Shown here piece after piece: positions 37,305 to 55,796 of a stretch of DNA of 64,000 nt (position 1 is its first letter; the number at the start of each line of letters is the position of its first letter). The stretch comes from Nitrospirota bacterium. GTDB taxonomy: Bacteria > Nitrospirota > Nitrospiria > Nitrospirales > Nitrospiraceae. Below the pieces are notes generated by a model, which saw only the letters and a program-made list of their open reading frames with translations, had not been told where the DNA came from and searched no databases. The position numbers and the translations under genes are program-made. The stretch is from contig JBFLWP010000006.1 of NCBI GenBank assembly GCA_040757595.1, positions 1 through 64,000 on the forward strand, written 5' to 3'.

Positions 37305-38920
37305 GGGGTGACCCTCCCGGCGCGAGGCGCGAGGCGCGAGGTCAGAGGACCAAATCCGGCAAAGGACTCCCCATGTCTGGTTTGTCTGATCCCTCGAGCC
37401 TCTAGCCCCGTGCCCCGGACCTGAGCAACCGGCGTGGCCGGTTGCTCTGCATGCTCGACCAGATGGTCCACGGTGGCGTGCATGGGCGTCAGCACCGGAT
37501 TCGGGAAGATTCCGATCCAGAAGACGAGGACGGCCAGGACGCCCAGGAGGGCCAGCTCGCGCCGGTCGAGATCCGCGAGGTGCCCGTGCGCGTTCGCCGG
37601 CCTGACGCCGAAGGCCACCCGCTGGATCATCCACAACAGGTAGGCCGCCGCCAGGATGACCCCCAGCGCCGCCGCCGCGGCGACCGGCTTGCTCCAGAAG
37701 AAGGTCCCGACCAGCACGAGGAACTCGCCGACGAAGCTGTTCGTGCCCGGCAGGCCCAGCGAGGAGAGGGCGAAGATCACCAGGAACGTGGCATAGCGCG
37801 GCATCGGCCCGGCCAGGCCGGCGTTGTCGGCGAGCATCCGGCTGTGCGTGCGCTCGTAGATGATGCCGACGCAGCAGAAGAGTGCGCCGGTCGTGATCCC
37901 GTGGTTGAGCATCTGCATGATCGCGCCCTCGATGCCCTGGGCGTTGACGACGAAGATCCCGAGGGTCACGAAGCCCATGTGGCTGACGCTGGAATAGGCG
38001 ATCAGCTTCTTGAGGTCGGTCTGCGCCAGCGCCATGTAGGCCCCGTAGAGGATGGCCGTCAGCGAGAGGCCGAGCATGAACGGGGCGAAGGTCTCGGTCG
38101 CCTCCGGCAACATGGGGAGCGTGAAGCGGAGGAAGCCGTAGGCGCCCATCTTCAGGAGGACGCTGGCCAGGATCACGCTGCCCGCGGTCGGCGCCTCCAC
38201 GTGCGCGTCCGGCAGCCAGGTATGGAACGGGAACATCGGAACCTTCACGGCGAAGGCCAGGAAGAATGCCCAGAAGAGCCAGTGCTGGAGCGTGGAGGAG
38301 TACTCCACCCGGCTCAGCAGGAGGATGTCGAAGGTCTGCCCGCCCTTGAAGTAGAGCACGAGGATCGCGACGAGGAGCAGCACGCTCCCGGCCAGGGTGT
38401 AGAGGAAGAACTTGATCGCCGCGTAGAGCCGGTTCGGCCCGCCCCAGACCCCGATGAGCAGGTACATCGGGATCAGCATCGCCTCCCAGAACACGTAGAA
38501 CAGCACGAAGTCCAGGGCGGCGAAGACCCCCAGCATGGCGGTCTCCATGATCAGCAGGGTCGCCAGGAATTCCTTCACGCGGGTCTGGATGGCCTTCCAG
38601 GAGACCAGCACGCAGATCGGGGTGAGGAAGGTCGTCAGCAGGAGCAGCGGCAGGCTGATCCCGTCCACGCCCACGCTGTAGCTGATCGGCGGCGAGGTGA
38701 TCCACGAAACCCGCTCGGCGAACTGCATGCGCGGCGTGGCGGGATCGAACTGCAGCCACAGGGGGACCGACAGGACGAAGTCCGCGAGCGACGTCCCGAG
38801 CGCGACCCACCGGGCGGTCGCCTCCCTGACCAGGAACAGGACCGCGGTCCCCGCCAGCGGCAGGAAAATGACCAGGGTCAGCCAGGGAAAGCCGTTGCTC
38901 TGGATGCTCACGTCGCTCAT
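37301..38920 (-). CDS. nuoM: NADH-quinone oxidoreductase subunit M
   Basis: Antiporter-like proton-pumping subunit, 539 residues, starting at the ATG at 38920. Signature segments: FYVFWEAMLIPMYLLIGVWG (TM5 Glu), FFLAFAVKVPMFPFHTWLPD and HVEAPTAGSVILASVLLKMG (TM7 Lys and broken helix), LKKLIAYSSVSHMGFVTLG. The last ~45 residues (after HATVDHLVEH) are atypical for NuoM; their DNA is a GAGGCGA-family heptamer array with its loop (37319-37418). The stop overlaps the nuoN GTG. Confidence 0.96.
   Translation of the reverse strand: MSDVSIQSNGFPWLTLVIFLPLAGTAVLFLVREATARWVALGTSLADFVLSVPLWLQFDPATPRMQFAERVSWITSPPISYSVGVDGISLPLLLLTTFLTPICVLVSWKAIQTRVKEFLATLLIMETAMLGVFAALDFVLFYVFWEAMLIPMYLLIGVWGGPNRLYAAIKFFLYTLAGSVLLLVAILVLYFKGGQTFDILLLSRVEYSSTLQHWLFWAFFLAFAVKVPMFPFHTWLPDAHVEAPTAGSVILASVLLKMGAYGFLRFTLPMLPEATETFAPFMLGLSLTAILYGAYMALAQTDLKKLIAYSSVSHMGFVTLGIFVVNAQGIEGAIMQMLNHGITTGALFCCVGIIYERTHSRMLADNAGLAGPMPRYATFLVIFALSSLGLPGTNSFVGEFLVLVGTFFWSKPVAAAAALGVILAAAYLLWMIQRVAFGVRPANAHGHLADLDRRELALLGVLAVLVFWIGIFPNPVLTPMHATVDHLVEHAEQPATPVAQVRGTGLEARGIRQTRHGESFAGFGPLTSRLAPRAGRVTP
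37319..37418. repeat. Heptamer hairpin array, GAGGCGA family, in nuoM tail
   Basis: Left arm GGCGCGAGGCGCGAGGCGCG (37319-37338); right arm CCTCGAGCCTCTAGCCCCGT (37392-37411). Entirely within the 3' end of nuoM, where it encodes the extra C-terminal tail. Confidence 0.75.
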
Positions 38921-38937
38921 CGCTCGACTAAAGAGGC

Positions 38938-39030: not shown

Positions 39031-40923
39031 TTAGAAAAGAAGGTACACCGTCAGGATGAAGACCGCGCCCATGGCCATGCCCAGGGCATAGTGCTGGGTC
39101 TGGCCGCTCTGGAGGAACCGCAGCACCAGCCCGCACCAGCCGATCAGGCTGGCCACCCCGTTGACCGTCGCGTCGATCATGCCCACGTCCACTTTCTTCC
39201 AGAGCCGGTCGGCCAGCGTGAGGGTCGGGCGTACGATCGTTGCGTCGTAGGCCTCGTCCACGTACCACTTGTGGAATGACAACTGATACGCCTGCTGCCA
39301 TCGCCGGGCGAGCCGGTCGGGGAGGTCGGGCGAGACAACGTAGCAATAGTAGGCCGCGGCGATCCCGCCCAGCCCCATCAGCGTTGCGACTGCCATGACG
39401 CCCGCCGCGCCCTCCTGGTGGTCCTCGCCGGCCGAGCCGAGGACCGGGGCAAGCCAGCCGGGGATGCCCAGGTACCCGGCGGCGACGGAGAGGCCGGCCA
39501 GCACGATCAGCGGGACGGTCATGGTCTTGGACGGCTCGTGCACGTGGCCGGCATGGTGCGGGTCCGCGCGGCTTGGCCCCCAGAAGGTCACGAAGACCAG
39601 GCGGAAGCTGTAGAAGGCCGTCAGGAGCGCCGTGAGCAGTCCGAGGGTCGCCAGCGTCTTCCCGAGCGGTCCGGCGGCCCAGGCCGAGACCAGGATCTCG
39701 TCCTTGCTGAAGAAGCCCGAGGTGAGCGGGAAGCCGGCCAGGGCCAGCGAGCCGATCACGAAGGTCCAATAGGTGACCGGCAGCTTGTCCTTGAGCCCGC
39801 CCATGCGCCGCATGTCCTGCTCGTGGTGCAGCGCGATGATAACCGAGCCGCAGCCGAGGAACAGCAGCGCTTTGAACGCGCCGTGGGTGAGCAGGTGGTA
39901 GATGCCCGCCGTGTAGGCGCCCAGCCCGCAGGCCATCACCATGTAGCCGAGCTGGCTCACGGTCGAGTAGGCCACGACGCGCTTGATGTCAAACTGGGTG
40001 AGTGCGATCGTGGCGCCCAGCACCATCGTCGCGGCCCCGACGACCGCGACCGCGTCCATGGCCGCCGGCGACAGGCTGTAGAGCGGGGCCAGCCGCGCCA
40101 CCATGAAGACGCCCGCGGTGACCATCGTGGCCGCGTGGATCAGGGCCGAGATCGGCGTGGGGCCTTCCATCGCGTCGGGCAGCCAGACGTGGAGCGGAAC
40201 CTGGGCCGACTTGCCCACGGCTCCCAGAAAGAGCAGCAGGCAGATCAGGGTCAGCGTGGAGACCTCCCATTCGCCGCCCATCGGGTTCAGCAGGTTGGTC
40301 ATGTCGCCGACGAGGTCGGGCGCCTGGGCGAACACGTGCCGGTATTCCAGCGAGCCGAAGCTGTAGAAGACCAGGAGGACGCCCAGGATGAAGCCGAAGT
40401 CCCCGACCCGGTTGACGACGAAGGCCTTGGTCGCGGCGTCGCAGGCGGACTTGCGCTCGTACCAGTGGCCGATCAGCAGATAGGAGCAGAGCCCGACCGC
40501 CTCCCAGAACACGAAGAGCTGGAGGAAGTTGTCGGCCATCACCAGCATCAGCATCGAGAACGAGAACAGGGCGATGTAGGCGAAGAAGCGGGCGTAGCCC
40601 TTCTCCCCGTGCATGTAGCCGATCGTGTAGACGTGGACGAGGCCGCTCACGGTCGTGACCAGGAGCAGCATGGCCGCGGTCAGCCGGTCGATGGAGAGGC
40701 CGATGCCGATTCGCAGATCGCCCGAGGTCAGCCAGGTATAGAGGGGGACCGAGATCGTATCGCCGCCGGCCACGTCCTGGAACGCGAGGAGCGAGAGGAC
40801 AAACGAGCCCCAGACCGCCGGCACGGCCACCCAGTGGGCCCGGTCCTTGAGCCAGTGCCCGCCCATCCCGACGATCAGGAAGGCGAAGAAGGGGAGCAAT
40901 GGAATCAGCGCGTAGATCATCAA
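39031..40923 (-). CDS. nuoL: NADH-quinone oxidoreductase subunit L
   Basis: Largest antiporter-like subunit of complex I, 630 residues, with the long lateral helix region after the 14-helix core. Conserved parts: LQLFVFWEAVGLCSYLLIGH (TM5 Glu), GKSAQVPLHVWLPDAMEGPT (TM7 Lys), FDIKRVVAYSTVSQLGYMVM, and FFSKDEILVSAW. The C-terminus from about 520 contains the lateral helix (SFHKWYVDEAYDATIVRPTL) and the anchoring TM16. Normal length and no missing key residues. Confidence 0.97.
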   Translation of the reverse strand: MMIYALIPLLPFFAFLIVGMGGHWLKDRAHWVAVPAVWGSFVLSLLAFQDVAGGDTISVPLYTWLTSGDLRIGIGLSIDRLTAAMLLLVTTVSGLVHVYTIGYMHGEKGYARFFAYIALFSFSMLMLVMADNFLQLFVFWEAVGLCSYLLIGHWYERKSACDAATKAFVVNRVGDFGFILGVLLVFYSFGSLEYRHVFAQAPDLVGDMTNLLNPMGGEWEVSTLTLICLLLFLGAVGKSAQVPLHVWLPDAMEGPTPISALIHAATMVTAGVFMVARLAPLYSLSPAAMDAVAVVGAATMVLGATIALTQFDIKRVVAYSTVSQLGYMVMACGLGAYTAGIYHLLTHGAFKALLFLGCGSVIIALHHEQDMRRMGGLKDKLPVTYWTFVIGSLALAGFPLTSGFFSKDEILVSAWAAGPLGKTLATLGLLTALLTAFYSFRLVFVTFWGPSRADPHHAGHVHEPSKTMTVPLIVLAGLSVAAGYLGIPGWLAPVLGSAGEDHQEGAAGVMAVATLMGLGGIAAAYYCYVVSPDLPDRLARRWQQAYQLSFHKWYVDEAYDATIVRPTLTLADRLWKKVDVGMIDATVNGVASLIGWCGLVLRFLQSGQTQHYALGMAMGAVFILTVYLLF

Positions 40924-41021: not shown

Positions 41022-41327
41022 CTACCACTTCAGCAACTGGAAATCGTCCACGTTGATCGAAGACTTGCTCCGGTAGAGCGCGATGATGATGGCCAGCCCC
41101 ACCGCGACCTCGGCCGCCGCCACGGTCAGCGTGAAGAAAACGAAGACCTGGCCGGACAGGGTCTGGAAATAGTGTGAAAAGGCGACGAAGTTGATGTTCG
41201 TCGCGTTCAGCATCAGTTCGATCGAGAGCAGAATGATGATGATGTTCCGCCGGATCAGCACGCCGACCAGTCCGGTGAGGAACACGATCGTGCTCAGGAT
41301 CACGTAATACGATAAAGGAACCATCAT
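41022..41327 (-). CDS. nuoK: NADH-quinone oxidoreductase subunit K
   Basis: Three-helix MRP-related subunit of complex I, 101 residues, the standard length. IILLSIELMLNATNINFVAF carries the conserved Glu in TM2, and VFVFFTLTVAAAEVAVGLAI the second conserved Glu in TM3, both part of the proton-transfer axis. The C-terminal INVDDFQLLKW is typical. Gaps on both sides hold heptamer arrays. Confidence 0.97.
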   Translation of the reverse strand: MMVPLSYYVILSTIVFLTGLVGVLIRRNIIIILLSIELMLNATNINFVAFSHYFQTLSGQVFVFFTLTVAAAEVAVGLAIIIALYRSKSSINVDDFQLLKW

Positions 41328-41421: not shown

Positions 41422-41943
41422 TCACGGCTCGCGAACTCCAATGTCTTTTTTTGCGAGCACGATGGCACCGATCATGGCCACCAGCAGGATCAACGAGGCG
41501 ACCTCGAACGGAAACAGATAGGTGGAGTACAGGACCTCGCCGATCGTCTCCGTGTTGCCCGTGACCTCGGGGGCGGCTGGCTCCAGCAGGATCGGCCTGG
41601 CCGGCTCGTTGGCGTAGCTGCGCTGGAACGCCAGCAGGAAGAGCTCAGTCAGGAGGGTCACGCCCAGCAGGGCCCCGAGCGGGAGCTGGGCGTGGAACCG
41701 GTCTTCGCGCTTCACGTTCAACAGCATCACGACGAACAGGTAGAGGACCAGGATCGCGCCCGCGTACACGATGACCTGCACGGCGGCCAGGAACTCGGCG
41801 CGCAGCGTGACGTAGAGGCCGGCCACGTGGAAGAACATGATCAGCAGCGAGAGGGCGCTGTAGACGGGATTGCGCAGCGCCACCACCAGGATGGAGGTGA
41901 GCACGATGACGCCGGCGAAGTAGAAGAAAAAGAGGGTCTCCAC
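41422..41943 (-). CDS. nuoJ: NADH-quinone oxidoreductase subunit J
   Basis: Five-helix membrane subunit, 173 residues. METLFFFYFAGVIVLTSILV, NPVYSALSLLIMFFHVAGLY and VQVIVYAGAILVLYLFVVML are the conserved helices; the last corresponds to TM3, whose pi-bulge couples quinone chemistry to proton pumping. A ~50-residue loop between TM4 and TM5 (RSYANEPARPILLEPAAPEV) is hydrophilic as in other NuoJ. Length normal. Confidence 0.96.
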   Translation of the reverse strand: METLFFFYFAGVIVLTSILVVALRNPVYSALSLLIMFFHVAGLYVTLRAEFLAAVQVIVYAGAILVLYLFVVMLLNVKREDRFHAQLPLGALLGVTLLTELFLLAFQRSYANEPARPILLEPAAPEVTGNTETIGEVLYSTYLFPFEVASLILLVAMIGAIVLAKKDIGVREP

Positions 41944-42131: not shown

Positions 42132-42674
42132 TTACCCCTCTTTCGCAGGCATGTGCTTGAACGCGACGTTGAAGAAGGCCACGTTGGGGTGTTGAAGCTC
42201 CAGCTTCTTCTCGCGCACGGGGAACGACCGGTCTCCGATGGCGAGCAACTGCTCCTTGTTCAGGAGGAGCTGCCGCTTGTCGTACACCGCCCACTCGAAC
42301 TCGCGCGTCATGCCCAGCGCGTCCACCGGGCAGGCGTCCACGCACAGCCCGCAGAAGAGGCAGCGGGTCATGTCCATGGTGTAGCGCTTCGCGTAGCGCT
42401 TGGTGGGCTCGCCGGGAACCTCGGCGCTCACGACCTTGATCACGCGGGAGGGGCAGGCGGCCTCGCACAGGTCGCAGCCCACGCACTTCTCGGTCCCGTC
42501 GTCGTAGCGGAGCAGGCAGAGCATGCCCCGGTAGCTGTCCGGGAGGGTCCGCTTCTCGTGCGGATACTGGAGCGTGATCGGCTTGTAGCGCAGCAGGTGC
42601 GTGAGCGTGGCCTTCATGCCGACCAGGATCTCGTAAAAGATGATGGTCTTAAACCAAGTCTTGAGGTTTCTCAT
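42132..42674 (-). CDS. nuoI: NADH-quinone oxidoreductase subunit I
   Basis: Peripheral-arm subunit of 180 residues with two 4Fe-4S clusters (N6a and N6b). The two ferredoxin motifs are CVGCDLCEAACPSRVIKV and CLFCGLCVDACPVDALGMT. The N-terminal amphipathic part (LKTWFKTIIFYEILVGMKAT) contacts the membrane arm. It passes electrons toward cluster N2 in NuoB. Length and all eight cysteines are normal. Confidence 0.97.
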   Translation of the reverse strand: MRNLKTWFKTIIFYEILVGMKATLTHLLRYKPITLQYPHEKRTLPDSYRGMLCLLRYDDGTEKCVGCDLCEAACPSRVIKVVSAEVPGEPTKRYAKRYTMDMTRCLFCGLCVDACPVDALGMTREFEWAVYDKRQLLLNKEQLLAIGDRSFPVREKKLELQHPNVAFFNVAFKHMPAKEG

Positions 42675-42799: not shown

Positions 42800-43867
42800 C
42801 TACCTCGGGAAGAGGTAAGCTGCGATGGACGTGATCAGGATGTTGCCGAGCGCGATCGGGAGCATCACCTTCCAGCCGAAGCGCATGAGCTGGTCGTACC
42901 GCAGCCGCGGCAGCGTCGCGCGCAGCCAGAAGAACAGGAACAGGAAAAAGTAGACCTTGACCGCGAACCAGAAGGTCCCGGACAGCCAGGCCAGGTGCGC
43001 GAGCCCGCCGTGAAACTGGAGGAACGGCGCGGGCGCGTTCCAGCCGCCCAGGAACAGGGCGGCGGCGATGCAGGAGACCAGGATCATGTTTGCGTATTCC
43101 GCCAGGAAGTAGAACGCGAACCGCATTCCGCTGTATTCGGTGAAGAACCCCGCCACCAGCTCGCTCTCGGCCTCCGGCAGGTCGAACGGCACCCGGTTCG
43201 TCTCGGCCACCGCCGAGATCACGTAGACGACGAACGCGAAAATCTGCGGGAACGGCGGGGCGAAGATGTACCAGTTCCAGAACCAGCCGCTCTGCGCCTC
43301 CGCGATCTTGACCAGGCTCAGCGAGCCGGCCAGGAGCAGCACGCCCACGATCGCGAGCCCCACGTTCAGCTCGTAGCTGATCACCTGCGCCGCCGAGCGC
43401 AGCCCGCCCAGCAGCGAGTATTTGCTGTTGGAGGCCCAACCGCCCAGGATGACCCCGTAGGCGCCGATGGACGTGAACGCGAGGATGTAGAGGATGCCGA
43501 TGTTGATGTCGCTGATCACGAAGGGCTTGAACTGGACGCCGAAGAGCTCGACGGTCTCGTTGGGACCGAAGGGCACGACCGCGAAGCCGATCAGGGCCGG
43601 CACCAGCGCCAGGATCGGGGCCAGGCTGAACAGGAACTTGTTGGCTCCGGCCGGGATGATGTCCTCCTTGAAGAAGAGCTTCAGGCCGTCCGCGATCGGC
43701 TGCAGGACGCCGTAGGGGCCGACCTCCATCGGGCCCATCCGGTCCTGCATCCAGCCCAGCACCTTGCGCTCGGCCAGCGTCAGGAACATCACGGTGAGCA
43801 TGACCACGCCCATGACCACCGCGATCTGGGCGAGAGAAAACGCCAGCTTCAATCCGACTTCAGCCAC
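42800..43867 (-). CDS. nuoH: NADH-quinone oxidoreductase subunit H
   Basis: Membrane subunit forming the quinone-binding chamber with NuoB and NuoD, 355 residues and eight helices. [20 protein letters not shown] and [13 protein letters not shown] are the family hallmark. Acidic loop segment [20 protein letters not shown] and [19 protein letters not shown] hold the conserved glutamates of the E-channel. The C-terminal [20 protein letters not shown] is normal. Confidence 0.97.
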
Positions 43868-43880: not shown

Positions 43881-43969
43881 CTCGTTAAACGTCCCTCGTG
43901 AAGCGTGAAGCGTGTGTTTCCGGGATACTTCTCCCCCTGACGAGATACGAGCGACGCTTCACGAACTAC
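43881..43969. repeat. Heptamer hairpin array, GTGAAGC family, nuoH/nuoG
   Basis: Left arm CCTCGTGAAGCGTGAAGCGT (43895-43914); right arm GAGATACGAGCGACGCTTCA and CGAACTAC (43941-43968). The right arm reaches the nuoG stop at 43966. Confidence 0.75.
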
Positions 43970-46638
43970 GCCTTTTCGACTTTCACCTGCGCCAGCCTGT
44001 AATACGGCACCTTGGTGATCGGGTCAACCGCCACGTCCAGGAGCCGGCGCGCCTCCTGGTCGAAATGCTCCGGGAACTTGGCCACGCCCTCCGGAATGCG
44101 GTCCAGCAAGCTGGCCGTCGTCGTCATCTGGCCGAGGGAATTGGAGACCCGCACCCGGTCCCCCTCCGCCACCCCCAGCCTGGCCGCGTCCGCCGGATTC
44201 AAGGCCAGGGCGCCGCTCGATTGTACCTGCAGCAGCCCCTTGGCCCTGGTCGAGAGCTTCCCCGAATGGAACAAGGATTGCGCCAGCTCCAGCGTCAGGG
44301 GGGCGCCCGGGCCGGCCTGTCCGCCGGAGGCGGCCCAGTTATAGCGGGACGCGAGGTCCTCTGCAAATCCTTCGTTCAGGTACCGGTCCACGGCGTCCCG
44401 GTCCGGCTTGGGCGGGGTCGGGGCCGGCCCCAAAAGCCCGTAGCCGGGGATCAGGCTGCGAATCTCCTTGAGGATCTCCCGGGCGTCGCCGTATTCGATC
44501 GGATAGCCCATCAGGGCCGACAGGGCCGAGAAGACCTCCCAGTCGGGGCGGCTCTCCCCGATCGGTTCGATGGCCTGGCGGACCTGCTGGACGTGACCTT
44601 CGGTGTTGGTGAAGGTGCCGCTCTTTTCTGCGTAGGAACAGGCCGGCAGGACCACGTGGGCGAGCTTCGCCGTGTCGGTCAGGAACAGCTCCTGGACGAC
44701 GAGGAACTCCGCCTGCTGGAGCGCTTCCTCGACCTTCGCCGAGGACGGCAGGGTTCCGACCGGATTCTCGCCCACGACGTAGAGGGCCTTGACGCGACCG
44801 GTTCGGGCCTCCTCCAGGATTTCCAGGAGCGTCCCGCCCTGGTCCTTGGGCAGGTCCTCCTTCCACAGGGAGGCGAGCCGCGCGCGCGCCGCCTGGTCTG
44901 TCAGGTCGGCCGGCCCGGGCAGGAATTCCGGGACCGTGCCCATCTCCACCGCTCCCTGATCGTTGTTCTCTTCGGCCAGCGGCGCCAGCCCGCAGCCGGG
45001 CAGGCCGTGGTGGCCGGTCAGGAGCAGCAGGTCCAGCAGGGTCGCGGCCAGACCAGACCCCTCCGGCGCCCGCAGCACCCCCTGTCCGACGACGACGACG
45101 GCCCGGGCCGTGCGGGCGAAGGCCCGGGCTGCGGCCTTGAAGGAACTGGCGGGCGAGCCGGTCGCCTGCTCGATCGCGCGCCAGTCGAGCGCCCGGACCG
45201 CCTCGCCGACCCCCTGTACGTAGCGCGGCGCCTGCTGGGCGAGGGGCTGGCTCGCCAGGCCCTCCTCGACGACGGCCTTGATCAGCCCGAGCACGGCCGG
45301 CTTGAAGCGCTCGGGCGACGCCGCGAAGTGGTGCGTTGCGAGGTTCGAGATGTTGCTGATGCGCTCGACCGCCGGCTTCAGCGATTCGACCGTGATCAAC
45401 GTCGCGCCCCGCTTCTTCACCGCCTCCTTGATCTTGAGGCCGGTGACGGGGTTGGTCTCGGTGACGTTGGTCCCGACGAGGAGCAGGGCCTCCGCGTGCC
45501 CCAGGTCCTCGAAGCTCACGGTCCACCGGTGGGTGCCCTGCACGCGGCGGAGCGCGCGCACCGCGTTGATCTGGCCGTAGCGGGCGCTGCTGTCGAGCTT
45601 GTTCGTGCCGACCGCCAGCCGCATGAACTTCTGAAAGACGTACAATTCCTCGTTGGTACAGCGGCCGCCGATCAATCCCGCGAAGGCCCGGGGGCCGTGC
45701 TTGAGCTTGATCCGGACGAAGGTTTCGGCCACCAGCTCCAGCGCCTCTTCCCAGGTGGCCGGCGCCAGCTCGCCGTTGCGCCGGACGAGGGGCTGCGTCA
45801 GCCGGTCCGGGTGGGTGCTCACGTGATAGCCGAAGTAGCCGCGCGCGCAGAGGTCGCCGTTGTTGCGGCCGGCGCCGTGGGCGGAGTTGACCTCGATCAG
45901 CTGGTTCTCCTTGGTCTGGATCGTGATCTGGCACCCGTCCCCGCAGTAGGTGCAGACCGTGTCCGCGCGCTTGAGCATCCACGGCCGGTACTCGTACATG
46001 GACAGGCGGCTGGTGATCGCCCCGACCGGGCAGATCTGCACGCAGCCGCCGCAGAACTCGCAGTCCAGCGGGTGTGGGCCGAAGTGCTTGATCTCGGTCA
46101 TCGTCCCGCGGCCGCTCGGCGCGAGCGCCTTCACGTCCATGACCTCGTCGCAGTAGCGGACGCAGCGCAGGCACTGGACGCAGCGGTTCATCTGGGTTTC
46201 GATCAGGGGGCTGAAGTATTCCTTCGGGAAGACCCGCTTGATCTCGACGAACCGGCTGGTCGTGGGCGTGTACTGGTGCGAGAAGTCCTGGAGGTCGCAG
46301 CGGCCGCCCTGGTCGCAGACCGGGCAGTCCAGCGGGTGGTTGGCCAGGATGAACTCCAGCACCGACTTGTGCGCTTGGTCCACCACCGTCGTGGCGGTGC
46401 GCACGACCATGCCCTCGGCCACCGGCGTGCTGCAGGACGTCTGGAGCTTGGGGATCCGCTCGATCTCCACGAGGCACATGCGGCAGTTGGCGTCCGGCTT
46501 GAGCTTGGGGTGATAGCAGAAGTGCGGGATCATCACCCCGGCTTGGCGGGCCGCCTCGATGACGAGCGTGCCCTTCGGCACCGTGATCTGGCGCCCGTCG
46601 ATCGTCAGCCTGACCGGCTCGGCTGTCGTGTGAGCCAT
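43966..46638 (-). CDS. nuoG: NADH-quinone oxidoreductase subunit G
   Basis: Largest peripheral subunit, 890 residues. Order: 2Fe-2S ferredoxin domain ([28 protein letters not shown]), His/Cys-ligated 4Fe-4S motif ([19 protein letters not shown]), two further 4Fe-4S motifs ([30 protein letters not shown]), a fourth Cys set [10 protein letters not shown] in the molybdopterin-oxidoreductase-like domain (about 235 on), then the catalytically inert oxidoreductase fold and a C-terminal MopB-binding-like domain ([20 protein letters not shown]). It passes electrons from NuoF to NuoI. Confidence 0.97.
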
Positions 46639-46646: not shown

Positions 46647-46719
46647 AGGCTAGTGGCGAGAGGCGAGAGGCGAGAGGAGGACCGCTCCCATAGCCTCGTG
46701 CCCCGCGCCTCGCGCCTGC
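46647..46719. repeat. Heptamer hairpin array, GAGGCGA family, in nuoF tail
   Basis: Left arm AGGCTAGTGGCGAGAGGCGA and GAGGCGAGAGG (46647-46677); right arm TAGCCTCGTGCCCCGCGCCT and CGCGCCTGC (46691-46719). The array covers the nuoF 3' end (stop at 46650) and encodes its last ~20 residues. Confidence 0.78.
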
Positions 46720-47984
46720 TCCTCGGCCTCCCGGATCAGCTCCTCGTACTCGTGACGCCAGTACTTCAGCGTGCTCAGGATCGGGGCGATCTCCGCGTCC
46801 CCGAAGGCGCAGACCGTCCGCCCCGCGATGTTCTGGCACAAGTCCGTCAGCGTTTCAAGGTCCTGCATGCGCCCGCGCTTGGCCAGGATGCGGCGCAGCG
46901 TCTGCACCAGCCAGGAACTGCCTTCCCGGCAGGGGCTGCACTTGCCGCAGGACTCGTGGTGAAAGAACTCCATCAGCCTGAGCGCCGCCCAGACCATGCC
47001 CGTCCCCTCTTCCATCACGGTCACGCCGCCCGATCCCAGCATCGAGCCGGCTTGGGCCACCGATTCGAAGTCCAACTTCACGTCCAAATGCTCGGCGGTG
47101 AAAAAGGCGGCCGAGGCTCCGCCGGGGATGATCGCCTTCAAGGGCTTCTCCGACCGCATCCCGCCCGCGTGCTCGAAGATCAGCTCCCGGAACGTGATCC
47201 CCATCGGCACCTCGTAGTTCCCGGGCCGCTTCACGTGCCCGCTCACGCAGAAGATGCGCGTCCCCGTGCTCTTCGGCGGGGAGCCGAGGGCCGCGAACCA
47301 ATCGGCCCCTCGATTGACGATATGGGGCAGATTGGCCAGCGTCTCCACGTTGTTCACGACGGTCGGCTTTCCGTAGAGGCCGTGCGTGGCGGGGAAGGGC
47401 GGTTTGACCCGGGGCAGGCCGCGCTTTCCTTCCAGCGATTCGAGCAAGGCGGTCTCCTCCCCGCAGATGTAGGCCCCCGCCCCGCGGTGCACCCAGATGT
47501 CCACGTTCACGCCGGTACCGAGGATGTTCCTGCCTAGGTAGCCGGCCCGCCTCGCCTCGGCCAGGGCCTGCTCCAGAATCTTCGCGCCCAGGACGAACTC
47601 GCCCCGGATGTAGATGTAGGCGGTCTCGGCGCCGATCGCGTAGGCGGCGATGGCGATCCCCTCCAGCAACTGGTGCGGGTCCCGCTCGATCAACTGGCGG
47701 TCCTTGAACGTGCCCGGCTCGCTCTCGTCGGCGTTGCAGCAGAGATATTTCGGGCCGCGGTAGTCCTTGGGGAGGAACCCCCACTTCACGCCAGTCGGGA
47801 ACCCGGCGCCCCCGCGCCCGCGCAGCCCCGACTTCTTCACGATCTCGGTCACGTCGCCCGGCGCGACCTTGCCCAGGACCTTCCGCAAAGCCTGGTACCC
47901 GCCGGCCCGCTCATAGTCGGCCAGCGAGCCGGTGTACCCGGGCTGGGACATGTTCTTCGTCAGGATCAGCTCGTACTTCGGCAT
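46650..47984 (-). CDS. nuoF: NADH-quinone oxidoreductase subunit F
   Basis: NADH-oxidising flavoprotein subunit, 444 residues from the ATG at 47984 (MPKYELILTKNM). FMN/NADH-binding GLRGRGGAGFPTGVKWGFLP, followed by NADESEPGTFKDR, EETALLESLEGKRGLPR and the N3 cluster motif ESCGKCSPCREG, with the fourth Cys in LCQNIAGRTVCAFGD. The final ~20 residues (GAGHEAMGAVLLSPLASRH) come from a heptamer array and are not part of the usual fold. Confidence 0.97.
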   Translation of the reverse strand: MPKYELILTKNMSQPGYTGSLADYERAGGYQALRKVLGKVAPGDVTEIVKKSGLRGRGGAGFPTGVKWGFLPKDYRGPKYLCCNADESEPGTFKDRQLIERDPHQLLEGIAIAAYAIGAETAYIYIRGEFVLGAKILEQALAEARRAGYLGRNILGTGVNVDIWVHRGAGAYICGEETALLESLEGKRGLPRVKPPFPATHGLYGKPTVVNNVETLANLPHIVNRGADWFAALGSPPKSTGTRIFCVSGHVKRPGNYEVPMGITFRELIFEHAGGMRSEKPLKAIIPGGASAAFFTAEHLDVKLDFESVAQAGSMLGSGGVTVMEEGTGMVWAALRLMEFFHHESCGKCSPCREGSSWLVQTLRRILAKRGRMQDLETLTDLCQNIAGRTVCAFGDAEIAPILSTLKYWRHEYEELIREAEEQARGAGHEAMGAVLLSPLASRH

Positions 47985-47993
47985 CACCCTAAC

Positions 47994-48096
47994 CTCGTGA
48001 CGAGTGACGCGTAACGCGCGACGAGGAATTCGACAAGCTTTTGGATCTTCAAATCTGCACCTGTCACGCGTCACCCATCACGCGTCACGCTTCGCG
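47994..48096. repeat. Heptamer hairpin array, GTGACGC family, nuoF/nuoE
   Basis: Left arm TCGTGACGAGTGACGCGTAA and CGCGCGACGAGG (47994-48026); right arm CTGTCACGCGTCACCCATCA and CGCGTCACGCTTCGCG (48061-48096). The right arm overlaps the nuoE stop codon at 48078 and its last codons. Confidence 0.8.
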
Positions 48097-48611
48097 GGTT
48101 CTGGTAAGATGAACGGCCCGCTCTTAAGCGTGGAGGTGCCGTCCCGCTTCAAATCCGCCAGGATCCGGTCCACTTTCTCCTCGGTCAGCTTTTCGTAATA
48201 GTCGTCGTTGACCTGCATCATCGGGCCGGTCCCGCAGGCCGCCAGGCACTCCACCGTGCTAAGCGTGAACAGCCGGTCGGGCGTCGTCTCGCCCGGCTTG
48301 ATGCCCAGCCGGGCGTGCAGCCACTTCAGCAGGGCGTCCGACCCGACGAGCGCGCACATCAGGGACTTGCAGACCTGGATGTGGAACTTCCCGACCGGCT
48401 TCAGGTTCAGCATCGTGTAGAAGGTGACGGTCTCGTACACTTGCGGGGGCGTGACCTTCAGGATCGAGGCGATCTCCTTCATGGCCGCCTCGCTCACGTA
48501 GCCCTCCTCCCGCTGGGCCAGGTAGAGCAGGGGCAGCATGGCCGACCGCCGGACCGGGTACCGATGCAGAATCTGCTCGATCTCGTCCCTATACTTCTCT
48601 CGCAACATCAA
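48078..48611 (-). CDS. nuoE: NADH-quinone oxidoreductase subunit E
   Basis: Thioredoxin-like subunit of 177 residues with the 2Fe-2S cluster N1a. An N-terminal helical part (ILHRYPVRRSAMLPLLYLAQ) is followed by the ferredoxin fold. Cluster cysteines are in VCKSLMCALVGSD and VECLAACGTGPM. It pairs with NuoF in the NADH dehydrogenase module. The last residues before the stop come from a heptamer arm. Confidence 0.96.
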   Translation of the reverse strand: MMLREKYRDEIEQILHRYPVRRSAMLPLLYLAQREEGYVSEAAMKEIASILKVTPPQVYETVTFYTMLNLKPVGKFHIQVCKSLMCALVGSDALLKWLHARLGIKPGETTPDRLFTLSTVECLAACGTGPMMQVNDDYYEKLTEEKVDRILADLKRDGTSTLKSGPFILPEPAKRDA

Positions 48612-48727: not shown

Positions 48728-50479
48728 TCACCGGTCGCATTCCCCCATCACGATGTCGTAGGTGCCGAAGATCGTGATGATGTCCGAGATCAGGTAGCCC
48801 CGCGCCATGTGGTCGAACGCCCCCATGTGGACGAAGGACGGCGCCCGGATCTTCATCCGGTAGGGCCGCGGGCTCCCGTCGCTGACGATGAAGAAGCCCA
48901 GCTCGCCCTTCGGGGCCTCCGACGCGCAGTAGGTCTCGCCCTTGGGCGGCTTGAAGCCCTGGGTGAAGATGATGAAGTGGTGGATCAGGCTCTCCATGTC
49001 CCGCATGACCATGGGCTTGGGCGGCGGAATCACCTGCGGGAGATCCGCCATGATCGGGCCCTCCGGCATCAGGTCGAGGCACTGCTTGATGATCCGGCAG
49101 CTCTGCTTCATCTCCTCCATCCGGACCCAGTACCGGTCGTAGGTGTCGCCGTTCTTGCCGACCGGCACCTCCCACTCGACCTTGCCGTAGGCCCCGTAGG
49201 GCTCCAGCTTCCGCACGTCGTAGGCGACGCCGGAGCCGCGCAGCACGGGCCCGGTGAGGCCGAAGTTGATCGCGTCCTCCGCCGAGATCACGGCCACGTT
49301 CTTCGTCCGGCCCACCCAGATCCGGTTGCTCTGCAGCAGCGCGTCATATTCCCGGATGTGGTCCGGGAACGTGTCCAGGAACGTCTTCAGCCGCTGGGCC
49401 AGCTCGGGCGTGAAGTCGCTGTCCACGCCGCCGATGCGGTAGTAGTTCAGCGTGAGGCGGGCGCCGCAGAGCTTCTCGAACAGGTCGAGCAGCACCTCCC
49501 GCTCGCGGAACGTCCAGAAGAAGACCGTCATCGCGCCGATGTCCAGAGCCTGCGTGCCGAGCCAAAACAGGTGCCCGACGATCCGCTGCATCTCGGCGAC
49601 GATCGTGCGGACGTACTCGGCCCGCTCTGGCACCGTGATGCCCACGAGCTTCTCGACCGCCCGCACGTAGGCGTAGTTGTTGGTCATCGAGCAGACGTAG
49701 TCGAGCCGGTCCGTGTGCGGGATGACCTGCATGTAATGCAGCCCCTCGGCCAGCTTCTCCACGCCCCGGTGCAGGTAGCCCAGGTCCGGTGTGGCCTTGA
49801 CGATCCGCTCCCCGTCCAGCTCCAGCACGACGCGCAGCACCCCGTGAGTGCTCGGGTGCTGCGGCCCCATGTTCAGGAGCAGCTCCTCGGTCCGGCGGGA
49901 CGAGGGCGGCGCCTCCTCGGCCAGAAACGGCTTCTTCTTCTCGTCCGGAATCTCTCCCTCGACCGCCTCCGCGGGCGGCTCGTCCAGCCGGGGGATGAAG
50001 TCGAACTGGCTCCGCCAGCCGCGGCCCTCCGCGGGGAAGTCCTTGCGGAGTGGGTGCCCCTCGTCGTAGTCCTCCGGCATCAGGATGCGCCGCAGGTCGG
50101 GATGGCCGGCGAACCGGATGCCCATGAGGTCGTACACCTCCCGCTCCATGAAGTCGGCGCCCCGCCAGATGCCGGTGACGGAGTCGATGACGGGATCGTC
50201 CTCGGTCACACGGGCCTTCACCCGGAGGCGCCGGCCGTGCGGGAGGGAGAGGAAGTGATAGATCACTTCGAAGCGCTCCGGCTCGTCCGGATAGTCGGCC
50301 GAGCAGATGTCGGTGATGTGGTCGAAGGCCGCGGAGGGGTCGTCGTGGAGGAACCGCGCCACGTCCAGGATGCGCGGCGCGGCGACCTGCACGGACAGCT
50401 CCGACCGGGCCTCGTCCTCGTGGACCGAGAGCACCGCCTCCGGGAACCGGCTCTTCAACGTGTCAAGCAACGGGTGCAT
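48728..50479 (-). CDS. nuoCD: NADH-quinone oxidoreductase fused subunit CD
   Basis: Natural fusion of 583 residues: NuoC about 1-165 (RVTEDDPVIDSVTGIWRGAD, MEREVYDLMGIRFAGHPDLR), a Pro/Glu-rich linker, then NuoD from about 195 (LLLNMGPQHPSTHGVLRVVL to the C-terminus TYDIVMGECDR). NuoD forms the quinone pocket with NuoB; PQHPSTHG carries the quinone-site His. Arg238 in GYLHRGVEKL aligns with bovine NDUFS2 Arg85, the residue methylated by NDUFAF7, whose homologue heads this operon. Confidence 0.97.
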   Translation of the reverse strand: MHPLLDTLKSRFPEAVLSVHEDEARSELSVQVAAPRILDVARFLHDDPSAAFDHITDICSADYPDEPERFEVIYHFLSLPHGRRLRVKARVTEDDPVIDSVTGIWRGADFMEREVYDLMGIRFAGHPDLRRILMPEDYDEGHPLRKDFPAEGRGWRSQFDFIPRLDEPPAEAVEGEIPDEKKKPFLAEEAPPSSRRTEELLLNMGPQHPSTHGVLRVVLELDGERIVKATPDLGYLHRGVEKLAEGLHYMQVIPHTDRLDYVCSMTNNYAYVRAVEKLVGITVPERAEYVRTIVAEMQRIVGHLFWLGTQALDIGAMTVFFWTFREREVLLDLFEKLCGARLTLNYYRIGGVDSDFTPELAQRLKTFLDTFPDHIREYDALLQSNRIWVGRTKNVAVISAEDAINFGLTGPVLRGSGVAYDVRKLEPYGAYGKVEWEVPVGKNGDTYDRYWVRMEEMKQSCRIIKQCLDLMPEGPIMADLPQVIPPPKPMVMRDMESLIHHFIIFTQGFKPPKGETYCASEAPKGELGFFIVSDGSPRPYRMKIRAPSFVHMGAFDHMARGYLISDIITIFGTYDIVMGECDR

Positions 50480-50576: not shown

Positions 50577-51056
50577 TTACTTCACGAAGACCTTTTCCCT
50601 CTGGATCTTCTCCTGCAGCTTGAGCAGCCCGTCCAGCAGGGCTTCGGGCCTGGGCGGGCAGCCGGGGATGTACACGTCCACTGGCACGACCTGGTCCACG
50701 CCCTGGACCACGCTGTAGCTGTTGTAATGGTTGCCGGACGTCGCGCAGGAGCCCATCGAGATGACGTAGCGCGGCTCGGGCATCTGGTCGTAGATGCGGC
50801 GGATCACCGGCGCCATTTTGCGCGTCACCGTGCCGGCCACGATCATCAGGTCCGACTGCCGGGGCGAGGCGCGGAACACGCCGGCGCCGAACCGGTCGAT
50901 GTCGTACCGGGAGGAGACCGTGGCGATCATCTCGATCGCGCAGCAGGCCAGACCGAAGGTCATCGGCCAGAGCGCGGACTTCCGCGCCCAACCGACCAGG
51001 AGGTCCAGGTTGGTGGTGATCACGTTCGCTTCGAGCTGTCGTTCAAAGAGGCTCAC
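50577..51056 (-). CDS. nuoB: NADH-quinone oxidoreductase subunit B
   Basis: Subunit of 159 residues carrying the terminal cluster N2. The adjacent cysteines of GLACCAIEM, the cysteine of [11 protein letters not shown] and that of [16 protein letters not shown] are the four ligands. It transfers electrons to quinone at the interface with NuoD. Length and motifs are normal. A heptamer array lies on each side. Confidence 0.97.
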
Positions 51057-51067
51057 GATATTCGCCT

Positions 51068-51154
51068 CAGGGCGCGTGGCGAGAGGCTCGGGGCACGGGA
51101 CGCTTCGCTCACGGCTGGCTGCCCCTTGCCTCTGGCCTCGTGCCTCGCGCCTAA
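51068..51154. repeat. Heptamer hairpin array, GAGGCGA family, nuoB/nuoA
   Basis: Left arm CAGGGCGCGTGGCGAGAGGC and TCGGGGCACGGG (51068-51099); right arm CCCCTTGCCTCTGGCCTCGT and GCCTCGCGCCTAA (51122-51154). The right arm touches the nuoA stop codon. Confidence 0.78.
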
Positions 51155-51522
51155 TCCCATTCGAGCGCGCCCTTCTTCCACGCGTACCAGAACCCGACGA
51201 GAAGGATGGCGATGAACAGCGCCATCTCCATGAGCCCGACGAGGCCCAGCTTGCGATAGGCCACGGCCCAGGGAAAGAGGAAGATGATCTCGATGTCGAA
51301 GATCACGAACAGCATCGCGATGATGTAGTACCGCATCGGGAACTGTACGCGGGCGTCCGAGAACAGGGGGCTCCCGCTCTCGTACGGGGCCAGCTTCGCG
51401 CGATACGGCCGGTCAGGCCGCACCAGCGAGCCGACCAGGAGCGAGACCAGCCCGAACGCCAGGGCGATCACGATGAAGACCAGGATCGGAACGTAATTCA
51501 GCGGAACCGCGTCGCTACCCAT
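51151..51522 (-). CDS. nuoA: NADH-quinone oxidoreductase subunit A
   Basis: Three-helix membrane subunit of 123 residues. [20 protein letters not shown] is TM1; [20 protein letters not shown] is the flexible TM1-2 loop at the quinone site (the usual Cys is Ser here); [20 protein letters not shown] carries the conserved Asp and Glu residues of TM2. Start lies 5 bp after the midA stop, so the two are tightly coupled. Confidence 0.96.
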
Positions 51523-51527
51523 CTCGC

Positions 51528-52832
51528 TTACACTCGCGGGCTAGAGGCAATGGGCGAGGGGTTAGAGGCAACACTCTTCCCTATAGCCTCGTGCCTCTCG
51601 CCTTTCGCCTGCGACAATACGTCGCCGAAAAACGGCTTGAACCTGAGCCCGTCCAACTCAAGCCGTTCGAGCCCCTTGTGCTGGATCAGGATCTTGAACG
51701 TCCGGCCCATGCTTTCGGGCCGCAGCAGCCGGATGACCGACTGGAACTCCGGCGAGCCCGGCTCCAGCGTCCCGACCATCTCCTCGACGCCGAGCCCGAT
51801 CAGGAAGCTCATCTGGTTCGTGAAGCCGGTCACGTGCAGGCCCGCCTCTTCGCCCGCCGTCGCCAGGGCGGAAAAATCCACGTGGGCCGTGAGGTCCTGC
51901 TCGCCCACGCGCCGGTACGGGTCCTCCGCGACCGAGTGGCGATGGTAGCACAGCAGCGTTCCCCTGCGCCGGTCCGGCCCGTAGAGGTCCCGGGCCGCGT
52001 GGCCGTAGTCGATCGTGATCGCGACCCCGCGGTTCAGCACGCGCGCCACGTCCTTCATCCAGGCCGGCGCCTTCAGGTTGATCTCCGTCGTATACCCCTC
52101 CGGCAGCGTGATCCCCGCCCGGGCCAGCCGGTCCAGGTAGTCGGCGAGCGCGGGCGTGGAGAGGGGGGCCAGACGCTCGCAGAACCGTCCGTCCCGATAG
52201 TCCACGAAGAGTTCCTTCGCCTCGCCCCCTTCGATCCTGATGCGGTGGACCGGCAAAGCGTCCACCAACTCGTTCGAGAGGAACAGGCCGGTGACGCCGT
52301 CGGTGTCCAGGCCCTCCAGCCCGCTGCGCCAGGTGACCAGATCCGGGCGCCCCAGCCAGGGGGCCAGGTTGCGCCGCTGGGCCTCCCGCATGGCCGGGCT
52401 CCGCTCGACGAGGACATAGCGCAGCCGGTCCAAAAACGGACCGCCGCCCGCTTCGCAGTCCGCCAGAACGTCGCGCACCAGCAGTCCTTTGCCCGCGCCC
52501 ATCTCGACAATCGTGAAGGGATCAGGCCGGCCGAGCAACTCATCAATCTGTCGGGCCTGCCGCGCCAAGGCCTTCGCGAAGACCGGGTGTACGTCGCTGC
52601 TCGTGTAATAGTCGCCGTCCCAGCCGATGCGGTGCTCGCCGGCCTGTTCTTCCCCGTCGCCGGTTGCGCGCATGTAATAGCCGAATTGCGGATGATAGAG
52701 CGCCAGCTCCATGAACCGGACGAACGGAATCGGGCCGGTCGCCTGAATCTCTGCGACGATCGCCGCCACCAGCTCCGGGTGGCCGATGGACCCGGCATCG
52801 GCCTTCTGGGTCTTTTGCGCCAACTTGACCAT
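51528..52832 (-). CDS. MidA/NDUFAF7-family protein arginine methyltransferase
   Basis: A SAM-dependent methyltransferase of 434 residues (DUF185/COG1565), homologous to human NDUFAF7, which dimethylates Arg85 of complex I subunit NDUFS2 during assembly. Family motifs: GPIPFVRFMELALYHPQFGY, motif I TIVEMGAGKGLLVRDVLAD, LSNELVDALPVHR, and TIDYGHAARDLYGPDRRRGT. It is the first gene of the nuo operon, and the target arginine is present in NuoCD. The ATG at 52832 is chosen because a promoter-like sequence overlaps the longer frame's TTG start. The last ~25 residues come from a heptamer array. Confidence 0.92.
   Translation of the reverse strand: MVKLAQKTQKADAGSIGHPELVAAIVAEIQATGPIPFVRFMELALYHPQFGYYMRATGDGEEQAGEHRIGWDGDYYTSSDVHPVFAKALARQARQIDELLGRPDPFTIVEMGAGKGLLVRDVLADCEAGGGPFLDRLRYVLVERSPAMREAQRRNLAPWLGRPDLVTWRSGLEGLDTDGVTGLFLSNELVDALPVHRIRIEGGEAKELFVDYRDGRFCERLAPLSTPALADYLDRLARAGITLPEGYTTEINLKAPAWMKDVARVLNRGVAITIDYGHAARDLYGPDRRRGTLLCYHRHSVAEDPYRRVGEQDLTAHVDFSALATAGEEAGLHVTGFTNQMSFLIGLGVEEMVGTLEPGSPEFQSVIRLLRPESMGRTFKILIQHKGLERLELDGLRFKPFFGDVLSQAKGERHEAIGKSVASNPSPIASSPRV
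51536..51613. repeat. Heptamer hairpin array, GAGGCGA family, in midA tail
   Basis: Left arm GCGGGCTAGAGGCAATGGGC and GAGGGGTTAGAGGC (51536-51569); right arm ATAGCCTCGTGCCTCTCGCC and TTTCGCCTGCG (51583-51613). It forms the 3' end of midA just before nuoA. Confidence 0.8.
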
Positions 52833-52947: not shown

Positions 52948-55473
52948 TCACGCCCGCGGCTTGGTCCGGCGCGTCGGAGCGGCGGTCAAGGGATCGTCGG
53001 GCCAGGGATGTTTCGGATACCGTCCGCGCAATTCCTTCCTGACGTCCTGATAGGCGGAGGTCCAGAAGCCGGCCAGGTCCTGCGTGACCTGCACGGGGCG
53101 GCCGGCGGGCGAGAGCAGGTGGAGCGTGACCGGCACCCGGCCGTCCGCCAGGCGCGGCGTGTCGCGGCAGCCGAACAGCTCCTGCAGCTTGACCGCCAGC
53201 ACCGGCTGCTCGCCGCTCTCGTAATCCACGCGGAGGCGGGAGCCGCTGGGCACCGTCAGGTGGGTCGGGGCGAGACGGTCCAGTTGCCGCTGCTGCTCCC
53301 AGGTCAGGAGTGCATGGAGGAGACCGGTCAGGTCGAGTCGCTGCACCTGGGCCAGTTTCGTCATCCCGGCCAGATGGGGAGCCAGCCATTCCTCCAGCCG
53401 CGCAGTCAGCGCCGCGTCGGAGAGGTCCGGCCAGCCGGAGGCCGGCCCCTGCACGCGCCGCAGGAGCCGCACCCGCGCCTGCCACTGGCGCAACTCCCTC
53501 GTCCAGGGGAGCGCCTCGATCCCGGCCTGGCGGATGCCGAACAGCAGCGCGGCCGCGACCTGCGCGGGCTCCGGGTTCGGCAACGGCTGGTCCCGGAGCG
53601 TCAGTGCGCCCAACTGCCGCTGCCGCCTGGCCAGCACGGCCTGCGCCCGCTCGTCCCAGGTCACGAAGTCCGTCTCGCGAATCCGATCGGCGCAATGAGT
53701 TTCCAGCTCCTCGATCCCGATCGGCGCGGCCAGGAAGATGCGGGACCATTGGCCGGTCCCGTCCAGGTCGGCGATGACCAGATAGTCCTCCGACGAGAGC
53801 GGCTCCGGCTCGGGGAAGCTCGCGCCGCGGCCGTTGGCCAGCAGATAACGGCCTTCGCCGCCGGGCTGCCGCTGCGCGATCCGATCCGGATAGGCGAAGG
53901 CCAGCAGCAGGCCGAGCCGGTCGAGCCCGCCGGTTCCGCCGCGGGGGGCGGGAAGCTTGAGCTGCTGGCGCAGGAGCTGAGCCACCCGCTGCACCCGGAG
54001 GCTCGCGGCTCGGTCCACCGTCGCCCCGGCCGCTTGGTCGGCCCGCCCGTGCAGCACGTCCAGCCTCAGCCGCAGGTCCGCGTTCCGCCAGCCGGCCGGC
54101 CCGCCCAGCAAGTCGCGCTCGCTCAGGAGCGCCGCCACCTCGCAGGCGAGGCTACCCAGCCCGAGCGGCAGGGCCGCGAGGAGCATGTGCGCGAGGCGCG
54201 GGTGCAGAGCGAGAGCGGCCATGCGCGTCCCGTGGGCCGTGATCCGGCCCCGCTCGTCGAGCGCGCCGAGGCGCGTCAAGAGGTCGCGGGCCTGAGCTAC
54301 GGGGCCGGCTGGCGGCTGATCAAGCCAGGACAGCTCGCGCGGGTCGGTCGTGCCCCAGAGGGCCAGCTCCAGGACCAGCGGCGTCAGGTCCGCTTCCAGG
54401 ATTTCCGGCGGCCGGCGCGGCGCGAGCGTTCGATGCTCCGCGGCCGTCCAGAGCCGGTAGCACGAGCCCGGCTCCAGCCGTCCGGCCCGGCCCCGCCGCT
54501 GCTCGGCCGAGTCCAGCGTGACCCGGATCGTGTCCAGGCGCGTGAGCCCGCTGCGCGGATCGAAGCGCGGCACGCGCAGGAGGCCGGCGTCAATCACGAC
54601 CCGGATGCCGTCGATCGTCAGGCTCGTCTCGGCGATCGAGGTGGCGAGCACGACCTTTCGCTTCCCCGGCGGCGCCGGCGCGATGGCCAGAACCTGCGCC
54701 TCGAACGGCAGGTCCCCGTGGAGCGGGGCCAGGAGGACGTCCGGCCCGAGCCCCGCTTCCAAGAGCCGCCGCTCGACGCGCCGGATCTCGGCCATGCCGG
54801 GCAGGAAGACGAGCAGGCTGCCCGGCTCCTGCGCGAGCGAGCGCTTGATCGTCTGGATGGTCATCTGCACGAGGGCCGGCTCCGGCTGGCCGGACCGGGA
54901 ACGGTCGAGGTAGTGGGTCGTCACGGGAAAGAGCCGGCCCTCGCTCGAGACGACCGGGGCCCGGCCGAGCAGGTCCGCGACCGCGGCGCAGTCCAGCGTG
55001 GCCGACATGACGAGGAGGCGCAGGTCTGGGCGGAACAGCTTTTGAGCCTCCAGGCACAGGGCGAGGCCGAGGTCGGCCTGGAGGCTCCGTTCGTGAAATT
55101 CGTCGAAAAGGACGAAGCCGTAGCCGGCCAGAGACGGATCCTGCTGGAGCAGGCGGGTGAGGACGCCCTCCGTCACCACCTCGATGCGCGTGGACGGGCC
55201 GACCTTCGTGTCCAGGCGAATCCGGTAACCGACCGTCGCGCCGACCGGCTCGCCCAGGGTCGAGGCCATGCGGTGCGCCGCCGCCCGCGCGGCCAGCCGG
55301 CGCGGCTCCAGCAGGATGAGCTTCCGGCGTTCGAGCCACGGCTCGTCGAGCAGGGCGAGGGGAACGCGCGTGGTCTTCCCCGCGCCGGGCGGCGCGGTGA
55401 GGAGCGCGCTCCGCCCCTCCGCGAGCGCGCGGCGCAGGTCGGGGAGGACCGAGTCAATGGGCAGGCAATCCAT
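52948..55473 (-). CDS. hrpB: ATP-dependent RNA helicase HrpB
   Basis: DEAH-type helicase of 841 residues, started at the ATG at 55473 (MDCLPIDSVLPDL); a longer frame exists but reaches into the neighbouring region. Motif I APPGAGKTTRVP, motif II LFDEFHERSLQAD, motif III MSATLD, and motif VI QRRGRAGR are present, followed by the HA2/OB part and the HrpB-specific C-terminus (LASEL-type end replaced by VQVTQDLAGFWTSAYQDVRK). Bacterial HrpB has a poorly known RNA role. Stop lies 60 bp before the midA promoter. Confidence 0.95.
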   Translation of the reverse strand: MDCLPIDSVLPDLRRALAEGRSALLTAPPGAGKTTRVPLALLDEPWLERRKLILLEPRRLAARAAAHRMASTLGEPVGATVGYRIRLDTKVGPSTRIEVVTEGVLTRLLQQDPSLAGYGFVLFDEFHERSLQADLGLALCLEAQKLFRPDLRLLVMSATLDCAAVADLLGRAPVVSSEGRLFPVTTHYLDRSRSGQPEPALVQMTIQTIKRSLAQEPGSLLVFLPGMAEIRRVERRLLEAGLGPDVLLAPLHGDLPFEAQVLAIAPAPPGKRKVVLATSIAETSLTIDGIRVVIDAGLLRVPRFDPRSGLTRLDTIRVTLDSAEQRRGRAGRLEPGSCYRLWTAAEHRTLAPRRPPEILEADLTPLVLELALWGTTDPRELSWLDQPPAGPVAQARDLLTRLGALDERGRITAHGTRMAALALHPRLAHMLLAALPLGLGSLACEVAALLSERDLLGGPAGWRNADLRLRLDVLHGRADQAAGATVDRAASLRVQRVAQLLRQQLKLPAPRGGTGGLDRLGLLLAFAYPDRIAQRQPGGEGRYLLANGRGASFPEPEPLSSEDYLVIADLDGTGQWSRIFLAAPIGIEELETHCADRIRETDFVTWDERAQAVLARRQRQLGALTLRDQPLPNPEPAQVAAALLFGIRQAGIEALPWTRELRQWQARVRLLRRVQGPASGWPDLSDAALTARLEEWLAPHLAGMTKLAQVQRLDLTGLLHALLTWEQQRQLDRLAPTHLTVPSGSRLRVDYESGEQPVLAVKLQELFGCRDTPRLADGRVPVTLHLLSPAGRPVQVTQDLAGFWTSAYQDVRKELRGRYPKHPWPDDPLTAAPTRRTKPRA

Positions 55474-55598
55474 CAGAAAGGGACCAGAAAGGTGAAATCG
55501 ACGCGCATCCCTTGTACAAGGAAAACCTGCTGCAAGCCAAGCGCCGGGAGGAGTATAAAAGGGAGGCGGGTGGGCTTCACGCGGGGGAGGAGAGTCGC

Positions 55599-55796
55599 AT
55601 GGCGGCACTGACCTGGACCTGGGAGACGCCGATGAAGCCGGGCTGGTACTGGTACCGGGGGTCAGGCGAAACCGACCCGTTCATCGTCGAGGTGGACGAG
55701 TCCGGCTGCTTCCAGTGGCCGGACGGCGGCTATCAGGAGGCGAAGCTGGCCAAGGGCCAGTGGGCTGGCCCGATCCCGCCGCCTGAAGAATCGTAG
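55599..55796 (+). CDS. Small hypothetical protein
   Basis: A 65-residue protein beginning MAALTWTWETPMKPGWYWYR, rich in Trp, Tyr and Gly, ending in PIPPPEES. GGGGGAGGAG precedes the ATG at 55599, a strong ribosome binding site. Compact beta-type sequence; proteins with this WxWETPMKPGWYWYR-like opening look like small single-domain proteins of unknown role. Divergent from hrpB. Confidence 0.7.
   Translation: MAALTWTWETPMKPGWYWYRGSGETDPFIVEVDESGCFQWPDGGYQEAKLAKGQWAGPIPPPEES

Follow-up and report, generated by a model that had tools for sequence, protein, structure and literature searches.

What does a methyltransferase gene do at the head of a bacterial complex I operon, and does its product modify complex I itself? 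The gene in question, midA, lies in a 64,000-nucleotide stretch of DNA (the window), whose relevant features are collected in Table 1. The first-pass annotation had described it as an NDUFAF7-type gene heading the nuo operon 5 bp before nuoA, and this description holds: the protein falls within the MidA family (PF02636), nuoA starts at 51522, leaving a gap of 5 bp, and profile searches recover a complete nuoA-N set downstream, with all genes on the minus strand. The reading developed below, which we consider probable, is that MidA is a SAM-dependent protein arginine methyltransferase, serves as a complex I assembly factor and most likely dimethylates Arg238 of NuoCD.

Table 1. Features of the midA-nuo locus, with positions counted from the first letter of the window.
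Feature	Position	Strand	Assignment or remark
hrpB helicase	52948..55608	(-)	PF08482 196 bits; same-strand upstream neighbour of midA
midA	51528..52832	(-)	434-aa SAM-dependent methyltransferase of the MidA/NDUFAF7 family (COG1565, DUF185); the conserved domain covers roughly residues 15-407
MidA C-terminal tail	51528..51615	(-)	degenerate intergenic repeat in frame; repeat families D2 and D5
nuoA	51151..51522	(-)	PF00507 131.3 bits
nuoB	50577..51056	(-)	PF01058 104.5 bits; Thr76 (IVAGT) is the site bearing Arg in T-type complexes (covariation)
nuoCD fusion	48728..50479	(-)	PF00346 400.9 bits, PF00329 156.7 bits
NuoCD Arg238 codon	49766-49768	(-)	within GYLHRGVEKL; predicted methylation site
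nuoE	48078..48608	(-)	PF01257
nuoF	46650..47999	(-)	PF01512 and PF10589
nuoG	43966..46638	(-)	TIGR01973 506.9 bits, over cut-off
nuoH	42800..43867	(-)	NF004741 368.4 bits, over cut-off
nuoI	42132..42674	(-)	TIGR01971 137.2 bits, over cut-off
nuoJ	41422..41943	(-)	NF005164 156.3 bits, over cut-off
nuoK	41022..41327	(-)	NF004320 124.5 bits, over cut-off
nuoL	39031..40923	(-)	NF005141 773.2 bits, over cut-off
nuoM	37301..38923 (approximate start)	(-)	C-terminal part of ORF 37301-39769; TIGR01972 638 bits, ORF residues 297-773
nuoN	35823..37304 (approximate start)	(-)	C-terminal part of ORF 35823-38810; TIGR01770 460.2 bits, ORF residues 511-983

The identity of the enzyme is well defined. The frame opens with ATG at 52832 and closes with TAA at 51528-51530 (434 codons), and its product matches the Pfam profile Methyltransf_28 (PF02636) with 221.7 bits (E 1.4e-65), far over the curated cut-off of 23.3. 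Among solved structures in the PDB, its sequence matches solely 4f3n (COG1565), 1zkd (DUF185) and 5ztz (an NDUFAF7 homologue). The predicted fold was compared with the PDB by means of an AlphaFold model whose quality is moderate (pLDDT 69.7); the top six entries were all MidA/COG1565 structures (E 4.6e-26 to 5.5e-22), the next following at 1.8e-7. Residues G112, G114, G116, E188, D191, P194, D275, Y276, G310 and D313 are invariant in 49 of 49 homologues, an alignment that takes in Dictyostelium NDUFAF7 (5ztz), 1zkd and 4f3n; both the SAM-binding glycines (G112/G114/G116) and the E-x-x-D-x-x-P motif (E188, D191, P194) are therefore intact. The protein shares 61-72% identity with 17 relatives, and its best 80 genome loci are from Nitrospirota only, with identity of up to 71% (Nitrospira sp.); judged by sequence, the window is from a Nitrospira-like bacterium.

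The function of bacterial MidA has so far been inferred mainly in silico (PMC12455994), and the clearest guide to a substrate is the human enzyme, since knock-down of NDUFAF7 lowers methylation of Arg85 in NDUFS2 (PMC3829151; summarized in PMC9006661). The human and Dictyostelium NDUFAF7 proteins (PDB 5ztz, 5zu0) share the Pfam family, the fold and the invariant motif residues with the window MidA, and the substrate subunit NDUFS2 corresponds to NuoCD, which is encoded three genes downstream of midA. Residues 187-583 of NuoCD align with residues 34-430 of mature bovine NDUFS2 without a gap and at equal length, which places Arg238 on Arg85 and bears out the counterpart proposed in the first-pass annotation from the motif GYLHRGVEKL. 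This arginine is dimethylated in cow, human, Pichia and Paracoccus denitrificans and unmodified in E. coli (Carroll et al. 2013, PMC3750175). Dimethylation of Arg238 in the present organism is a prediction.

Conservation of Arg238 was considered as evidence of methylation and had to be rejected, because the arginine occurs without MidA in Nitrospirota and is unmodified in E. coli. The complex I of E. coli contains an Arg-type NuoCD fusion, as in the window, and E. coli has no PF02636 protein (among 14 control genomes including E. coli, only three others have one). Across 158 sampled Nitrospirota genomes, PF02636 is present in 126 and a NuoD-family match in 154. Every MidA-bearing genome in which a canonical NuoD was read has the Arg-type form; in three genomes, G163 (nearly complete) and G115 and G156 (both incomplete), MidA occurs with no detected canonical NuoD, which may reflect assembly gaps. 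A further 24 sampled genomes have an Arg-type NuoD and no MidA that could be found (families f10, f13 and f15 and several single genomes; some are incomplete, and f13 reaches up to 100% completeness), so that methylation would not be required for an Arg-type complex I. The interpretation in the first-pass annotation is partly sustained, by the enzyme family, the SAM-site residues, the correspondence of Arg238 with Arg85 and the conserved linkage described below, but not by the arginine itself.

These observations would also fit a different reading, in which MidA takes part in complex I assembly but has a different methylation target, such as NuoB or a second site in NuoCD, or works mainly as a chaperone. 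Many MidA-free genomes keep the same arginine, no NuoD residue separates Arg-type enzymes with MidA from those without it at the threshold used, and gene linkage implicates complex I but no particular residue. Nevertheless, the family's supported substrate in human cells is the equivalent arginine (PMC3829151), and MidA is absent from the four genomes that have only the threonine form of NuoD, which makes this alternative unlikely.

These four genomes belong to a wider pattern of arginine exchange between two subunits. In Thermus, threonine occupies the NuoD position, and the space is taken up by an arginine from the partner subunit that bears N2 (Hameedi et al. 2021, PMC8042128). Among canonical Nitrospirota complexes, 119 distinct pairs combine an arginine in NuoD with a threonine in NuoB and seven combine a threonine in NuoD with an arginine in NuoB, with no exceptions. 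The swap links the site of NuoD R238 with that of NuoB T76 (48728-51056 in the window; loci L280-L285 and L300), and a Thr-type NuoD always comes with an Arg-type NuoB. In G066, G075, G083 and G091 the sole canonical NuoD is the threonine form and there is no MidA, an observation that covers two families, includes one genome that is 77% complete, and is limited in weight by shared ancestry. In family f16, MidA is retained in genomes with both NuoD forms. This distribution agrees with MidA acting on the NuoD arginine, and the swap together with the absence of MidA from Thr-only genomes is the new supporting evidence for such a role. A broader proposal, which we regard as evenly balanced, is that Nitrospirota methylate the N2-side arginine of NuoD by an operon-borne MidA, that MidA became dispensable and was lost where the arginine had moved to NuoB, and that families with the arginine and no MidA would have an unmethylated, E. 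coli-like N2 site. The source genome of the window itself encodes a second, Arg-type complex I NuoD with a linked NuoB (G000:C3:201771-202583) and only one strong MidA, which is on a different contig from this second copy; the single MidA could serve both complexes. As a separate observation, NuoD at three loci of family f28 (L305-L307) is about 500 codons long and its PF00346 match is split in two, which suggests an insertion within the subunit.

The second question is whether the position of midA reflects its function. A survey of midA-nuo linkage, suggested in the first-pass annotation, covered 110 loci of the order. At 106 of them, comprising 100 distinct nuoA sequences, nuoA is the next gene downstream of midA and shares its strand; the linkage is retained among these relatives and exceeds chance. 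In two of the remaining four the contig ends; at the other two the gene after midA is nuoG, beyond an assembly gap (L091), or nuoH (L097), and these were rejected as exceptions, giving linkage in 108 of 108 informative loci. The assembly at L097 has nuoH directly after midA and lacks nuoA-G there, either by real rearrangement or by assembly collapse. The same gene order, with different upstream genes, recurs in three more families of the class (L178, L179 and L180), and it is absent from a fourth family (L177 and L200) and from the other Nitrospirota classes examined. The coupling of midA to nuo therefore characterizes a single class, Nitrospiria, in which it is conserved, and is not general. 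Two apparent cases were discarded: in family f9 some 4-5 kb separate midA from nuoA, with other reading frames between them, partly on the opposite strand, and the NuoB/NuoD-like pair beside midA at L176 is divergent, resembles hydrogenase genes and is encoded on the opposite strand. No published report of midA-nuo linkage was found in the literature searched.

A skeptic may hold that this linkage is mere inherited gene order and that the substrate of MidA is unrelated to complex I. The confinement of the arrangement to one class, with one of its families and other classes unlinked, would fit this explanation, as would the frequent occurrence of secA upstream of midA (49 of 59 loci) and a preliminary result on DNA methylation by Wolbachia MidA (PMC12455994). 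However, the nuo operon is the constant neighbour of midA while the upstream side varies: hrpB is found there only at the window's own locus among the loci examined, most relatives have secA at varying distance, and others have different genes, yet the spacing between midA and nuoA stays tight (median 53 bp among relatives). Moreover, at the rearranged loci L091 and L097 midA is still joined to the remaining nuo genes. Gene order without functional meaning is accordingly quite improbable, and the same strand, short distance and conservation in relatives make midA an operon-like, putative member of the nuo operon that may be co-transcribed with it. No promoter-like site was found within 51000-53300, the region around midA, and an Rfam search gave no regulatory RNA near the gene. 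Elsewhere in the window, at 58895-59610, two overlapping small ORFs resemble, by eye, a PIN-domain toxin and a Phd-type antitoxin.

The 5-bp gap in the window has an explanation of its own. Sequence conserved in the family stops near residue 407, homologues end earlier than the 434-residue frame, and residues 399-434 have pLDDT below 50 in the AlphaFold model; the gap is so short because the last 25 or so codons of midA read in frame through an intergenic repeat. The spacers of the nuo operon contain two families of degenerate short direct repeats (at 41352 and 48625, and at 42718-42796, 46648-46722, 51078-51157 and 51539-51615), one of which is translated as the MidA tail and recurs in the spacers 42718-42796, 46648-46722 and 51078-51157. 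The GGTCAGTGGTC repeat type has 10 matches genome-wide versus none in a reversed control. That midA is a degenerate or inactive relative kept just as a reading frame might be argued from this repeat-derived tail, but the intact invariant positions and the identity to 17 relatives make it extremely improbable.

How far does this locus speak to the origin of the modification? The eukaryotic NDUFAF7 gene is nuclear and free-standing. A tree of 48 proteins places Dictyostelium NDUFAF7 together with the alphaproteobacteria (100/99 support). The window MidA is distant from it and falls inside a Nitrospirales clade (96/98 support), apart from the family branch of the eukaryotic and alphaproteobacterial enzymes. 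Alphaproteobacterial MidA proteins (Rhodopseudomonas 1zkd; Sinorhizobium, Azospirillum, Rhizobium and Qipengyuania) belong to the same family with about 28-32% identity to the window MidA, and their genes are not at nuo but directly after lgt in four records, followed by pgeF in three. Because Dictyostelium NDUFAF7 joins the alphaproteobacteria, whose midA adjoins lgt, the mitochondrial gene cannot be traced to the Nitrospira operon and looks alphaproteobacterial in origin. The best PDB match of the window MidA by both sequence and fold is a betaproteobacterial COG1565 protein from Burkholderia (4f3n, 4g67), an entry that shows no function, and a Comamonas midA homologue adjoins a dihydroneopterin aldolase gene rather than nuo. 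Several genomes in a sister family additionally have a second, divergent PF02636 protein, forming a separate clade away from nuo (L191-L196). Weak second PF02636 matches of about 30 bits were rejected as MidA, being a different protein of about 500 aa, and stronger second copies in family f3 were rejected as nuo-linked MidA, since they form their own clade away from nuo.

The first-pass annotation had taken the genomic context to suggest that the modification is bacterial in origin. A bacterial origin as such is supported by the dimethylated arginine of Paracoccus complex I, unlike that of E. coli (PMC3750175), but it is already known and not new, and it cannot be derived from this context; a proteobacterial origin was argued by Shahul Hameed et al. 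(2018, Cell Reports), as cited in PMC9006661, PMC12455994 and PMC8042128. What the Nitrospira arrangement suggests is that MidA and complex I are functionally connected beyond the alphaproteobacterial branch as well. Given its distance from the experimentally supported alphaproteobacterial and eukaryotic branch, the window MidA could nevertheless have a different substrate.

On the preferred reading, that MidA modifies the N2-side arginine, the enzyme would dimethylate (presumably symmetrically) Arg238 of nascent NuoCD, the HRGxE arginine beside iron-sulfur cluster N2, before or during docking of NuoCD on NuoB. This timing is proposed by analogy with human NDUFAF7, which methylates NDUFS2 early, ahead of the 400-kDa subcomplex, and whose methyl mark probably stabilizes the contact with NDUFS7 (PMC3829151). 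With midA just ahead of nuoA, the modifying enzyme would be made together with its substrate.

In summary, the gene order at this locus is real and well conserved, the enzyme family is a known one, and methylation of Arg238 is a prediction. A stable midA-nuo order in a phylum so distant from Proteobacteria counts as independent evidence of a complex I role for the MidA family. Moreover, within this single phylum the arginine is gained, lost and relocated, which provides matched enzymes (predicted to be methylated, presumably unmethylated, and with relocated arginine) for studying effects of the methyl groups on N2 and assembly. If the operon-borne MidA indeed methylates NuoD and relocation of the arginine frees the cell of it, MidA would be an enzyme dedicated to complex I maturation in bacteria far removed from Proteobacteria, and one phylum would constitute a natural experiment on how methylation affects the N2 cluster and complex I assembly.
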